Source: Terriglobus albidus (lineage in GTDB: Bacteria > Acidobacteriota > Terriglobia > Terriglobales > Acidobacteriaceae). Taken from it: 64,000 nucleotides of DNA. The stretch is taken from positions 5,146,001 to 5,210,000 of the forward strand of contig NZ_CP042806.1 in the NCBI RefSeq assembly GCF_008000815.1, given 5' to 3'. The notes beneath the pieces were generated by a model that made no database searches, was not told the origin of the DNA, and saw nothing but the letters and a program-made list of their open reading frames with translations. Each line of letters begins with the position of its first letter. The first letter of the stretch is position 1. The translations under genes and the position numbers were made by a program. Of the stretch, positions 1,258 through 24,897 are shown piece by piece.

Positions 1258-2598
1258 ATGTCTGAACATCTTCATCCCATTGACATCATCCTTGCCAAGC
1301 GCGACGGCAAGGAATTGAGCGGCGAACAGATCGAAAACTTCATCGCCGACGTTGTATCCGGTGACGTCACCGACGCCCGGCTCGCCGCCTTTCTGATGGC
1401 AGTCTTTCAGCGCGGTCTCACCCGCACCGAGCTTGCCTATCTGACCAGCGCCATGCGTTTTTCCGGCGAGGTCTTCGACGCCGCCATCTCGCGCGGGACC
1501 AATGTCGATAAGCACTCCACCGGCGGTATCGGTGACAAGACATCGCTGCTGCTGGCGCCCATTGCGGCCGCCGCGGGCCTGTGTGTCCCGATGATCTCGG
1601 GCCGCTCGCTGGGACACTCCGGTGGGACCCTGGACAAGCTTGAGACCATTCCCGGCTACAACACGCAGCTCACCATGGAACAGTTCGGTGAGGTCATCCG
1701 CAAGGCCGGCTGCTCCATCATCGGGCAGACCGAACGCCTGGTCCCCGCCGACCGCATCCTCTACGCCATGCGCGACCACACCGGCACGGTGGAATCGCCC
1801 TATCTGATCTGCGCCAGCATCATGAGCAAGAAGCTCGCTGCCGGCCTCAATGCGTTGGTGCTGGACGTAAAGACCGGCTCCGGCGCCTTCATGAAGAAGG
1901 TCGAGGACGCGGAGTTTCTGGCCAGCCTTCTGGTCTCGACCGGTGAGCTCGCCGGCACAAAGACCGGTGCTCTGCTCACGACCGTCGATCAGCCATTGGG
2001 CCGTTTCAGCGGCAACTGGATTGAGGTGTGGGAGTGCGTGGACATCATGAAAGGTATTCGCCACCCCTTTAGCGAAGACCTCATCGAGTTGACGATTGGC
2101 CTCGCCGGACAGATGCTCTTCCTCGGCGGGAAGGCAGGTTCCGCGGAAGAGGGCGAACGCCTCAGCAAGGAACTGCTGGAGAACGGCAAGGCTTGGGAGC
2201 ACTGGGTACTGATGGTAGAAGCCCATGGTGGCGATGTCCGCGTCTTCGAGAATCCAGCAGCCTTCCACAAGCCAGCCGCCACCCGCACCCTGACAGCAAA
2301 GCGTAGCGGCTACCTGGCATCGATGAATTGCACGCAGGTCGGCTGGGCGATCCAGCGTCTGGGCGCCGGACGCGAACGGCCAGGTGACCCGGTCAGCGCC
2401 GATGCCGGCCTGACGATGCACGCCAAACTCGGTGACTACCTGAAGGAAGGCGATCCACTAGTGACCATCTTCGCGGCCAGCACTTCGAAGATCGATGGTC
2501 CAGCTGAGATGCTGATCGAGACCATGGAGATCAGCGACGAGAAGCCGCAGGTGCGTCCGCTCATTCTGAAACCAATTACCGCGGCTGATGTGAAGTAG
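1258..2598 (+). CDS. deoA: Thymidine / pyrimidine-nucleoside phosphorylase
   Basis: This 446-residue protein belongs to the thymidine phosphorylase family, which splits thymidine, deoxyuridine or uridine with phosphate into base and (deoxy)ribose 1-phosphate. The family signature KHSTGGIGDKTS is at 85-96, followed by the glycine-rich segment SGRSLGHSGGTLDKLE. The C-terminal domain contains the GDxLxxG-like segment (GDYLKEGDPL) of the family. It begins 52 bp after cdd and precedes the transporter by 65 bp. The sequence does not settle whether the enzyme is thymidine-specific (DeoA) or the broader Pdp type; the name deoA is a best guess. Confidence 0.9.
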   Translation: MSEHLHPIDIILAKRDGKELSGEQIENFIADVVSGDVTDARLAAFLMAVFQRGLTRTELAYLTSAMRFSGEVFDAAISRGTNVDKHSTGGIGDKTSLLLAPIAAAAGLCVPMISGRSLGHSGGTLDKLETIPGYNTQLTMEQFGEVIRKAGCSIIGQTERLVPADRILYAMRDHTGTVESPYLICASIMSKKLAAGLNALVLDVKTGSGAFMKKVEDAEFLASLLVSTGELAGTKTGALLTTVDQPLGRFSGNWIEVWECVDIMKGIRHPFSEDLIELTIGLAGQMLFLGGKAGSAEEGERLSKELLENGKAWEHWVLMVEAHGGDVRVFENPAAFHKPAATRTLTAKRSGYLASMNCTQVGWAIQRLGAGRERPGDPVSADAGLTMHAKLGDYLKEGDPLVTIFAASTSKIDGPAEMLIETMEISDEKPQVRPLILKPITAADVK

Positions 2599-22657: not shown

Positions 22658-23752
22658 CTACAGCTTGACGCCTGCTGACTCGTAGATCTTCTCAATATAA
22701 GTAAGATCGCGCAGGCCCTCTTCACCGGGAGTCTTTGGCGTGCGCCCAGTCTGGACACACTCCGCAAAGTGATCGGCCTCGCGCTCAAACTGCTTCGGGT
22801 CTTTTTCCGGATTGCTCTCCTCCCAGTGCTCGCCTTTCGCCCGGCCTCGCATGGTGACACCGTCATAGCCATAGGTCGGCCCCATCTCCAGGGTTCCGGA
22901 AACGCCATGAACGCGCATGAAGCCTTCCATCTGTCCTCCGTAGGTGGAGGCACAACTGGCTACCACACCGCTGGGAAAGCGCATGCTCCATTCGACCGAC
23001 TCTTCCATCTCTGCAAAGCGCGGATCATTCTTATGCACTGTACTGGCAACGGCCTTGATCTCTACCGGCTCCTCCCCCGTGAACATGCGTGCCGCCTGCA
23101 GCGCGTAGATGCCGACGTCGTAGACACTGCCGCCGCCGGCCAAGGCCTTCTTCGTACGCCATACGCCAGGCTGAATATTGAAACCGAACTGCCCTTCAAA
23201 TGCGACCACGTCGCCGATCTTGCCGCTGCGCACCATCTCGATGCACTTCAGCGTCAGCGGCTCATACTGCATGCGGTAGGCGATCATCAACTTCACGTTC
23301 GCGGTTTTACAGGCATCGATCATCTGCTGGCACTCAGCCGAGCTCAGCGCCATGGGCTTTTCGCAGAAGACATGCTTGCCCGCCTTGGCCGCGCGGATGG
23401 TGTATTCGGCATGCATCGAGTTCGGCAGAGCGACATAAACCGCCTGCACCGTCTTGTTGTCGCGGATGCGGTCGAAGTCTTCGTAGCTATAGATCGAGTC
23501 CTTGGGGACGCCATACTCCGCCGCGATGCGCTCGGCCTTGTCACGATGACCGCTGACCAGGGCCGTGATCTTACAACGCTGTGACTGCTTCACACCCCGC
23601 ATGAAGTGGTCGGCGATAACACCCAGCCCGATGACGGCGAATCCAACCCGTTCCTGTTGTTGTGCGAATATGTCTGGAACCGCACCAGGGACAGCGATGG
23701 CTGCCGTGCTGAGTGCACCTAGTCTGGTAAATTCACGCCTTGTCCACGCCAT
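22658..23752 (-). CDS. Gfo/Idh/MocA-family oxidoreductase with Tat signal
   Basis: About 364 residues. I prefer the ATG at 23752 (MAWTRREF) with GGAGG ten bases upstream. A twin-arginine-type leader (TRREFTRLGALSTAAIAVPGA) precedes a Rossmann domain (AVIGLGVIADHFMRG) and the family motif CEKPMALSSAE, with GGSVYDVGIYALQAARM in the C-terminal domain. This resembles glucose-fructose oxidoreductase-like exported enzymes that keep tightly bound NADP. Substrate is not determined. It is divergent from the poly-Cys leader and peroxiredoxin unit. Confidence 0.87.
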   Translation of the reverse strand: MAWTRREFTRLGALSTAAIAVPGAVPDIFAQQQERVGFAVIGLGVIADHFMRGVKQSQRCKITALVSGHRDKAERIAAEYGVPKDSIYSYEDFDRIRDNKTVQAVYVALPNSMHAEYTIRAAKAGKHVFCEKPMALSSAECQQMIDACKTANVKLMIAYRMQYEPLTLKCIEMVRSGKIGDVVAFEGQFGFNIQPGVWRTKKALAGGGSVYDVGIYALQAARMFTGEEPVEIKAVASTVHKNDPRFAEMEESVEWSMRFPSGVVASCASTYGGQMEGFMRVHGVSGTLEMGPTYGYDGVTMRGRAKGEHWEESNPEKDPKQFEREADHFAECVQTGRTPKTPGEEGLRDLTYIEKIYESAGVKL

Positions 23753-23829
23753 TACTCTCATTCCTCCGTTTTCGCGTTCGCGCTATAGGATGCTTGTGAC
23801 CCCGGAGAATTCTGCCATATTCCGCAGGT

Positions 23830-23859
23830 TTGACACCGGCCCCATCAGAGGGCTAGGCT
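23830..23859 (+). promoter_or_regulatory. Putative promoter of the poly-Cys leader / peroxiredoxin unit
   Basis: A perfect TTGACA -35 (23830-23835) is followed after 18 bp by TAGGCT (23854-23859, three of six matches to the -10 consensus). Transcription would begin near 23866, about seven bases before the leader ATG, making the leader ORF almost leaderless. Confidence 0.5.
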
Positions 23860-23872
23860 TTGTATCAAGCTA

Positions 23873-23950
23873 ATGATCACTCGTTTTGCCAACTCCTGCA
23901 TGTGCTGCTGCCGCTGCTGTTGCTGTGGCCCGGTGCGGGTGTGCGAATGA
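23873..23950 (+). CDS. Poly-cysteine leader peptide (candidate cysteine attenuator)
   Basis: A 25-codon ORF, ATG to TGA, with nine Cys codons. Seven of the eight residues 11-18 are Cys apart from Arg14, Cys9 precedes them, and Cys24 lies near the end. There is no ribosome site; a TTGACA promoter upstream predicts a nearly leaderless transcript. A perfect intrinsic terminator begins 41 bp after its stop and the peroxiredoxin gene follows. Codons 22-23 (CGGGTG, 23936-23941) can pair with CACCCG in the left terminator arm (23995-24000). This is the layout expected of ribosome-stalling attenuation: slow decoding of Cys codons would favour the antiterminator. Poly-Cys attenuator ORFs are known from mycobacteria; here the function is inferred. 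Confidence 0.65.
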   Translation: MITRFANSCMCCCRCCCCGPVRVCE

Positions 23951-23990
23951 GCGAATCGAACTGACAATAGTTCAGAGATTAGGACTCAGA

Positions 23991-24024
23991 AACCCACCCG
24001 AAGCCTGCAGGCCGGGTGGGTTTT
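23991..24024 (+). terminator. Intrinsic terminator / attenuator upstream of peroxiredoxin
   Basis: AACCCACCCG (23991-24000) pairs perfectly with CGGGTGGGTT (24013-24022), and the loop itself holds a short GCC/GGC stem. TTTT follows or overlaps the arm end, then CAACTTT. It stands between the poly-Cys ORF and the peroxiredoxin start at 24090, so it would block that gene unless disrupted. The alternative pairing of 23936-23941 with 23995-24000 offers such disruption. Confidence 0.8.
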
Positions 24025-24089
24025 CAACTTTCGGCCGCTTTTTGACCCGATAGGAAACGAACGAACTTTCAAGGAAGGAAACAAAGCAG

Positions 24090-24746
24090 ATGTCACTCCG
24101 GATCAATGACACCGCTCCCGATTTCAAGGCGGAAACTTCGCAAGGCACGATCAACTTCCACGAGTGGATCGGCGACAACTGGGCAGTACTTTTCTCGCAC
24201 CCCAAGGACTTCACTCCGGTCTGCACCACCGAGCTCGGCGCCGTAGGCGCTCTCGAGAAGGACTTCGCTGCCCGCGGCGCCAAGGTCATCGGCCTTAGCA
24301 TCGACCCGGCAGAGAGCCACAGCCGCTGGGCACAGGACATCAAGGACGTGACCGGCGCCGATGTGAACTATCCGATCATCGCTGACACCGACCTGGCCGT
24401 TGCCAAGCTGTACGGCATGCTTCCCGCCGAAGCCGGCGATAGCTGCGAGGGCCGCACCCCGGCCGACAACGCCACCGTTCGCGTGGTCTACGTCATCGGA
24501 CCCGACAAGAAGATCAAGCTGCAGCTTGCTTACCCGATGACCACGGGCCGCAACTTCGATGAGATCCTGCGCGTTCTGGACTCCATCCAGCTCACCGCCA
24601 AGCACAAGGTTGCGACTCCGGCGAACTGGAAGCCCGGCGAAGATGTCATCATCACCGGCGCGGTCTCGAACGAAGAAGCAGACAAGATCTTCCCGGGCTA
24701 CAAGACCGTGAAGCCTTACCTGCGCACGACCGCACAGCCGAAATAA
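24090..24746 (+). CDS. 1-Cys peroxiredoxin (Prx6 type)
   Basis: The 218-residue thiol peroxidase reduces peroxides in the cytoplasm. The peroxidatic Cys45 lies in HPKDFTPVCTTELG, the Prx6-subfamily version of the active site. The C-terminal region with ANWKPGEDVIITGAVSNEEADKIFP is the Prx6 extension. The other visible cysteine (in GDSCEGR) is not in a canonical resolving position. A strong AAGGAAGGA precedes the ATG. Upstream is the poly-Cys ORF and terminator; downstream is tRNA-Cys. Control by cysteine supply fits an enzyme whose catalysis and recycling depend on thiols. Confidence 0.93.
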   Translation: MSLRINDTAPDFKAETSQGTINFHEWIGDNWAVLFSHPKDFTPVCTTELGAVGALEKDFAARGAKVIGLSIDPAESHSRWAQDIKDVTGADVNYPIIADTDLAVAKLYGMLPAEAGDSCEGRTPADNATVRVVYVIGPDKKIKLQLAYPMTTGRNFDEILRVLDSIQLTAKHKVATPANWKPGEDVIITGAVSNEEADKIFPGYKTVKPYLRTTAQPK

Positions 24747-24779
24747 CGTAGTGTTGTTGTAATCTGTAACAGGAAATTC

Positions 24780-24816
24780 AACTCCGCCGGGCCCTTCACT
24801 GCGGCGCGGCGGAGTT
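24780..24816 (+). other. GC-rich hairpin between peroxiredoxin and tRNA-Cys
   Basis: AACTCCGCCG (24780-24789) pairs with CGGCGGAGTT (24807-24816). It ends five bases before the mature tRNA. No T-run follows, so read-through and processing into tRNA-Cys is possible; it could equally be a weak terminator. Confidence 0.6.
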
Positions 24817-24821
24817 CCAGA

Positions 24822-24897
24822 GCACCGGTGGCGAAGTGGCTAACGCGCTGGTCTGCAAAACCAGTATTCGCGGGTTCAATTCCCGCCCGGTGCTCCA
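24822..24897 (+). tRNA. tRNA-Cys (anticodon GCA), CCA encoded
   Basis: The cloverleaf is complete. The acceptor GCACCGG pairs with CCGGTGC, the D-stem is GCG/CGC, the anticodon stem CTGGT/ACCAG holds loop CTGCAAA (GCA anticodon), and the T-stem GCGGG/CCCGC holds TTCAATT. U73 as discriminator, typical of tRNA-Cys, and an encoded CCA finish it. It lies 75 bp after the peroxiredoxin stop, and a degenerate copy of its 3' part lies 17 kb downstream. Confidence 0.97.

Follow-up and report, generated by a model that had tools for sequence, protein, structure and literature searches.

A short open reading frame (ORF) in Terriglobus albidus (genome size 6.4 Mb), with cysteine codons making up nine of its 25, lies ahead of a peroxiredoxin gene that is followed by a gene for tRNA-Cys. 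The arrangement raises the question of whether ribosomes reading these codons decide on the transcription of what lies downstream. A sequence-only reading of the window (the whole stretch of 64,000 nucleotides analysed here) had proposed a cysteine-responsive attenuator. The parts of the locus, in window coordinates, are:

22658-23761, minus strand: Gfo/Idh/MocA-type oxidoreductase gene, divergent, the upstream neighbour of promoter and leader
23830-23859, plus strand: candidate promoter read from the letters, TTGACA (23830-23835), 18-nt spacer, TAGGCT (23854-23859)
23873-23950, plus strand: leader ORF, read directly, 25 codons with nine Cys, nearly leaderless provided that the promoter is correctly placed
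23897-23926, plus strand: Cys run, read directly, eight Cys within ten codons
23935-23941, plus strand: candidate antiterminator strand GCGGGTG, part of the leader tail, its CGGGTG complementary to the terminator left arm
23989-24024, plus strand: intrinsic terminator, read directly and present in relatives, 12-bp stem, 12-nt loop, short T-run
24090-24746, plus strand: 1-Cys-type peroxiredoxin (Prx) gene, 218 aa, from Pfam domains AhpC-TSA and 1-cysPrx_C and from relatives
24780-24816, plus strand: hairpin without T-run between Prx and tRNA, read directly and from comparison of gaps
24822-24897, plus strand: accessory tRNA-Cys(GCA); a second, different tRNA-Cys lies elsewhere in the genome

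Direct reading bore out the ORF with its nine Cys (peptide MITRFANSCMCCCRCCCCGPVRVCE*) and its nearly uninterrupted Cys run, the assignment of the peroxiredoxin to the 1-Cys type, and the 75 bp that separate its gene from tRNA-Cys. The coordinates of the sequence-only reading hold. The TTGACA hexamer is present and would place about 6-8 nt ahead of the leader ATG, as the claim of an almost leaderless ORF requires, but the -10 element TAGGCT is weak and a generic sigma-70 scan of the window did not report the 23830-23859 promoter. The terminator, called perfect, has its 12-bp stem (left arm GAAACCCACCCG, 23989-24000; right arm CGGGTGGGTTTT, 24013-24024), but a T-run of four bases only. It is missing from the list of a generic terminator scan that allowed loops of up to 8 nt, the loop here being 12. 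The proposed antiterminator pairing, CGGGTG (23936-23941) with CACCCG (23995-24000), is present as a complementarity. Assignment of the leader region to a known RNA family was rejected, as an Rfam scan of the window at gathering thresholds matched the tRNA only and no T-box.

Comparison with relatives, which the sequence-only reading had put forward as a check, found Cys runs and terminator kept before the same gene. The Prx was searched for in the T. albidus genome and 60 relatives. In all 17 genus genomes having this Prx, a short ORF rich in Cys and a terminator-like hairpin precede the gene and tRNA-Cys follows it, so that the complete series of leader, terminator, Prx and tRNA-Cys is found in 17 of 19 Terriglobus genomes; the fragmented assemblies G012 (720 contigs) and G015 (410 contigs) yielded neither such a Prx nor a full-length match to the window-type tRNA. 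The leader peptides of the genus, in their longest readings (MITRFANSCMCCCRCCCCGPVRVCE through LLQVMTPNLSLCACCCLAVQAGM), vary widely between relatives outside the Cys run. What stays constant is the run itself and the hairpin, mostly with a CCCACC/GGTGGG-like core. The hairpin stands between leader and gene at 18 of 18 loci (genus plus G035), and TTGACA-like promoters precede the leader in relatives too.

A strict rule, asking for four or more Cys within eight codons of a short ORF, was passed by 84 of the 86 real loci, themselves preselected by a looser Cys rule, and by 7 of 1720 Markov-resampled copies. With the looser rule, 47 of 1720 resampled copies of the leader region qualified, and neither rule accepted any of 29 regions upstream of other tRNA genes in the same genome. 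The leaders use 339 TGC and 205 TGT codons; thus, the third base varies. Searches by peptide motif were less productive. In a scan of 250 family genomes for CCRCCC, considered as a general motif, the 30 loci examined among the matches listed included one clear leader (L088, preceding a sulfite reductase), and the remainder looked like runs in other frames. A shorter motif, CCRCC, likewise matched at a great many places in the genus, and the peptide-motif approach was replaced by a gene-based search. Candidates L001, L002 and L015 from the scan of the T. albidus genome were likewise discarded, as they look like repeats or other-frame runs. A second Prx of the same type in this genome (68% identical; L370, G000:C1:5928094-5928744) has no Cys leader, nor has its counterpart in G006 (L371).

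An Rfam search of the T. albidus genome placed tRNAs at 47 positions, and ARAGORN confirmed 46. Two are tRNA-Cys(GCA) genes, the 76-nt copy of the window and a divergent 75-nt copy beside a tRNA-Gly, and the idea that the window copy might be the sole tRNA-Cys was therefore rejected. The 75-nt type was matched in 181 of 200 family genomes (E<=0.001; matches sometimes partial). Across the phylum, 31 of 396 genomes gave a match to the window type (E<=1e-12), all Acidobacteriaceae. The window tRNA-Cys is thus an accessory copy.

What precedes this accessory gene was tallied at 54 full-length loci in 51 family genomes, with leaders called by the looser rule and no terminator required. A leader and a window-type Prx were found at 33 loci and a leader with a different Prx (36-39% identical) at 5, making 38 with leader and Prx. 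A further 8 have the leader immediately ahead of the tRNA, with no Prx. Two loci have a Prx without detected leader (at one, L263, the Prx lies at the edge of the stretch examined) and 6 have neither, 3 of them belonging to a single genome, G227; in all, 8 of 54 loci carry the tRNA with no leader detected, which speaks against the attenuator as a general rule. The tRNA had been put forward as a possible target of the attenuator; with leaders directly before it at 8 of 54 loci, the case is stronger than was guessed. A second set, which overlaps with the first, was obtained by scanning named genomes with 26 bases of the window tRNA. Among its 60 stretches, 35 show leader, terminator and Prx, and 12 show leader, terminator and tRNA. 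Two have only a terminator by rule, both with a Cys-rich ORF by eye; 5 have none of these elements, and 6 are cut off on the upstream side.

If the tRNA is a target, it should be read from the promoter of the leader. Promoters were compared in the 60-stretch set, at 35 unique loci with Prx and at 13 of the direct kind. Of the latter, 12 have a TTGACA-17-TAGTCT-like promoter that precedes the leader ORF or overlaps it, the Cys ORF starting farther from the promoter than at the window locus; between terminator and tRNA there is no promoter, the best site there scoring at most 4.3 (mean 2.1 vs 7.7). In the 120 nt ahead of tRNAs that follow Prx, no site exceeds the 95th percentile of resampled sequence at any of 35 loci. 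Such a site was found in the 120 nt upstream of 12 of 29 other tRNAs of the T. albidus genome and ahead of 60% of the Prx leaders. The gap between Prx and tRNA ranges from 29 to 196 nt (18 loci). Given a promoter ahead of the leader, no promoter-like site before the tRNA and short gaps, the accessory tRNA-Cys is most likely produced by read-through of the attenuator, in a transcript presumably shared with Prx where that gene is present. GC-rich hairpins without T-run are seen right ahead of the tRNA in the window (24780-24816) and at many of L017-L033; this hairpin is possibly a processing signal separating mRNA and tRNA.

The choice between terminator and antiterminator was examined by folding 86 unique pairs of leader and terminator, 69 from Prx loci and 17 from direct ones, left after removal of sequence duplicates from a set of 114. 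With the right arm not yet made, pairing of the left arm is 0.65 when the ribosome is placed mid-run and 0.18 when it is placed at the stop codon; shuffling the freed tail lowers the former value to 0.45 (Wilcoxon P ~3e-12, relatedness ignored). The left arm is mostly paired at 70 of 86 loci in the stalled state, 5 of 86 at the stop and 25 of 86 with shuffled tails. Own tail-arm pairs surpassed pairs swapped between loci in 20000 of 20000 permutations (n=86; relatedness ignored), the same test having given P = 0.001 with the first 18 loci and P = 0.005 with a subset of 13 (relatedness ignored). An exact Watson-Crick complement of at least 6 bases occurs at 29 of 86 loci (shuffles: mean 11.2, maximum 21). 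Locus by locus this measure reaches p <=0.05 at 17 of 86, and the median locus (p 0.38) is no better than shuffles. Once the whole terminator is included, folding at equilibrium narrows the contrast (0.74 when stalled, 0.89 with the ribosome at the stop and 0.85 for a shuffled tail), and the terminator is still favoured at 73 of the 86 stalled loci. At the window locus taken alone, pairing between tail and arm does not exceed that of shuffled tails (0.54 vs 0.52; duplex p = 0.107). The antiterminator first proposed from this copy thus draws its support from the whole set: the folding supports an antitermination step for the group of loci, and for the window copy such a step is plausible.

Cysteine leaders are not confined to Prx and tRNA-Cys. 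The loci are:

L243, 3809-7068 (G000:C1 from ~3265808): leader locus of the T. albidus sulfite reductase, with relatives' loci L136-L165
L013, ~1480-1560, reverse strand: leader of a TlpA-like redoxin, T. albidus
L375 from 2305 and L376 from 2366: leader of the TlpA-like redoxin in relatives G012 and G015

In T. albidus, leader MQTAKNSCCCPVCCCV and a terminator precede the sulfite reductase gene, a tetrapyrrole methylase gene lying farther on. Among the best 30 loci of 53 genomes with a match to this enzyme, 2 are cut, leaving 28 evaluable, some of them from other families of the class. By the looser rule, 19 of the 28 have a Cys-run ORF upstream (L146, L151 and L165 being doubtful), and 14 of these 19 have a rule-based terminator. 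Leader MSYYAIRACCCRCCCPQQAAVELRSGR, behind TTGACC-17-TATTGT, precedes the TlpA-like redoxin; it recurs with changed residues and a rule-based terminator in G012 and G015, both of which are without the Prx locus. As sulfite reductase serves cysteine supply, cysteine or charged tRNA-Cys can be argued to be the signal, and these further leaders point to one or the other.

In a few genomes the Prx of this type precedes tRNA-Sec in place of the accessory tRNA-Cys. Leader, terminator and Prx are followed by tRNA-Sec after ~150 nt in G027 (L372, 967-2116) and after ~640 nt in G024 (L373, 1295-2915). In G031 (L374, 3334-4184) the Prx lacks a leader and tRNA-Sec follows after ~100 nt. In G032 leader and terminator stand ahead of Prx, with no tRNA in the stretch examined. 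SelB scores above the curated cut-off in G027, G024, G031, G032 and G036, whereas T. albidus, G008 and G035 have no SelB above it.

Sequence comparison establishes the leader and the terminator, the order of the genes, the conservation of all of these and the absence of a promoter-like site ahead of the tRNA. A conserved codon-rich ORF and a terminator between leader and first gene, as expected of an attenuator, were both found, the latter by rule at 35 Prx loci and 12 direct loci of the 60-stretch set. From these features we infer that the leader is translated, that ribosomes stall on it, that antitermination follows and that the tRNA is co-transcribed, as well as what the physiological signal is. 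The attenuator first suggested for this locus is thus supported, and a transcription attenuator, working through ribosomes that read Cys codons, very probably controls the peroxiredoxin-tRNA-Cys transcription unit. Transcription would start just ahead of the leader ORF, which a ribosome would enter almost immediately. With ample Cys-tRNA-Cys, the ribosome would reach the stop codon and mask the segment able to pair with the left arm; the terminator would then fold and transcription stop ahead of the Prx gene. Cys-tRNA-Cys could run short because cysteine is low or oxidised, or because demand exceeds the amount of tRNA-Cys; the ribosome would then stall in the Cys run and the leader tail could pair with the left arm once this is made. 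The left arm being captured, polymerase would continue into Prx and the accessory tRNA-Cys.

Other explanations have to be weighed against this. The attenuator might govern Prx only, the neighbouring tRNA-Cys coming from a promoter of its own or from a processed constitutive transcript. G032, G024 and G027, with leader, terminator and Prx but no accessory tRNA-Cys in the stretch examined, indicate that Prx is a target by itself, and the hairpin found between Prx and tRNA at many loci would fit a separate origin of the tRNA. Still, we consider this unlikely, in view of leaders that immediately precede the tRNA (8 of 54 loci in the family, 12 of 60 stretches), of promoter-like sites before 0 of 35 tRNAs behind Prx and of gaps as short as 29 nt. 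That the Cys run is a product of chance or an antisense TGY repeat, with no translated leader at all, would agree with the many CCRCCC matches of the family that are not leader-like and with the several Cys runs of the T. albidus genome that lie in repeats or other frames. It is extremely improbable against 84 of 86 real and 7 of 1720 resampled loci, a third base that varies (339 TGC vs 205 TGT) and the 0 of 29 regions upstream of other tRNAs.

More elaborate is the proposal that the nascent Cys-rich peptide is itself the sensor, binding copper or another metal or undergoing oxidation, and so alters translation or termination. A copper-responsive upstream ORF in Bordetella, reported in PMC9426467, offers a precedent, and the genes downstream encode redox enzymes; yet the peptides diverge widely beyond the Cys run, similar leaders precede sulfite reductase, a gene of cysteine supply, and others precede a tRNA-Cys gene, all of which makes a peptide sensor very improbable. 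Leader translation could also be coupled to downstream translation or to Rho with no part for the hairpin, as proposed for Cys leaders of actinobacteria, which according to PMC1262725 have no conserved terminators and are explained by a Rho model; a translation-level mechanism in M. smegmatis is likewise cited in PMC13236596 and PMC9031893. For the loci studied here we judge such coupling very improbable, since a terminator-like hairpin separates leader and gene at 18 of 18 loci and a tRNA could not be controlled via its own translation.

Returning to transcription attenuation by ribosomes at Cys codons, on balance we lean towards a broader scheme in which a tRNA gene would be attenuated by the very ribosomes that depend on its product. 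When charged tRNA-Cys runs short, synthesis of tRNA-Cys would be turned on, alone or with Prx, as one arm of a cysteine-attenuation regulon including sulfite reductase and the TlpA-like redoxin, with tRNA-Sec behind the same Prx, with or without leader, in a few selenocysteine-using relatives.

The trp and his attenuators combine a codon-rich leader, a terminator and an alternative pairing of leader tail with left arm. The loci described here share the first two and have a candidate for the third; unlike trp and his, they would read Cys and, in some instances, target the gene of the decoding tRNA itself. In T-box riboswitches it is tRNA charging that chooses between terminator and antiterminator, as it would here, but the window has no T-box match and sensing would require translation. 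Canestrari et al. 2020 (doi 10.1111/mmi.14498) reportedly described leaderless poly-Cys short-ORF attenuators of mycobacteria. Common to these and the present loci are a short Cys-run ORF upstream of genes, which at the window locus is predicted to be nearly leaderless, and cysteine as the proposed signal, whereas the phylum, the terminator-like hairpin and the inclusion of Prx and the tRNA-Cys gene among the targets set the present loci apart. Such leaderless attenuators are cited in PMC13236596, PMC9094748 and PMC9031893. Cys leaders proposed for the cys and cbs operons of actinobacteria (PMC1262725) also have a run of Cys codons near the stop of a short ORF ahead of sulfur genes but no conserved terminator hairpins, unlike the 18 of 18 loci of the genus plus G035.

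The kind of attenuator is itself known, and the most notable addition would be a Cys-codon leader whose target is its own decoding tRNA. In the open-licence literature searched, we found no tRNA gene described as attenuated, no Cys leader from an acidobacterium and no such Prx target. To our knowledge, how bacteria match levels of single tRNAs to demand is poorly understood; a tRNA gene placed under its own codons would, if confirmed, form a self-contained feedback on tRNA supply. It would also tie cysteine sensing to peroxide defence, and would provide a signal and a set of targets for the predicted attenuators of Acidobacteria. PMC2965389 gives associated functions for almost none of the latter, and names hisS as a T-box example.

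A number of loci stood outside the family tally. The genus genomes G002, G005, G006, G013 and G017 were covered by L016-L032; at L269 (G176) no tRNA-Cys was found; and weaker matches, such as that of G095, were left aside. L270-L284 are 15 matches of lower identity, partly to the other tRNA-Cys beside tRNA-Gly. They include L277 with leader and tRNA, L275 and L276 with leader and alternative Prx, and L274 with alternative Prx and no leader, none of the rest having been accepted as a leader or Prx arrangement. G227 has three accessory tRNA-Cys copies (L223, L247, L252), with a leader detected at none. The different Prx (36-39% identical) lies between Cys leader and accessory tRNA-Cys at L213, L259-L262, L275 and L276; AhpC-TSA and 1-cysPrx_C domains are also present in 2 of 2 checked among the five of the tally. 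The 60 stretches are titled Acidobacteriaceae, Acidobacteria or genera such as Terriglobus, Granulicella and Silvibacterium, one being titled Verrucomicrobia. This contig (L335) has the leader-Prx-tRNA arrangement with a Prx 81% identical, and its title probably reflects a misassigned bin.
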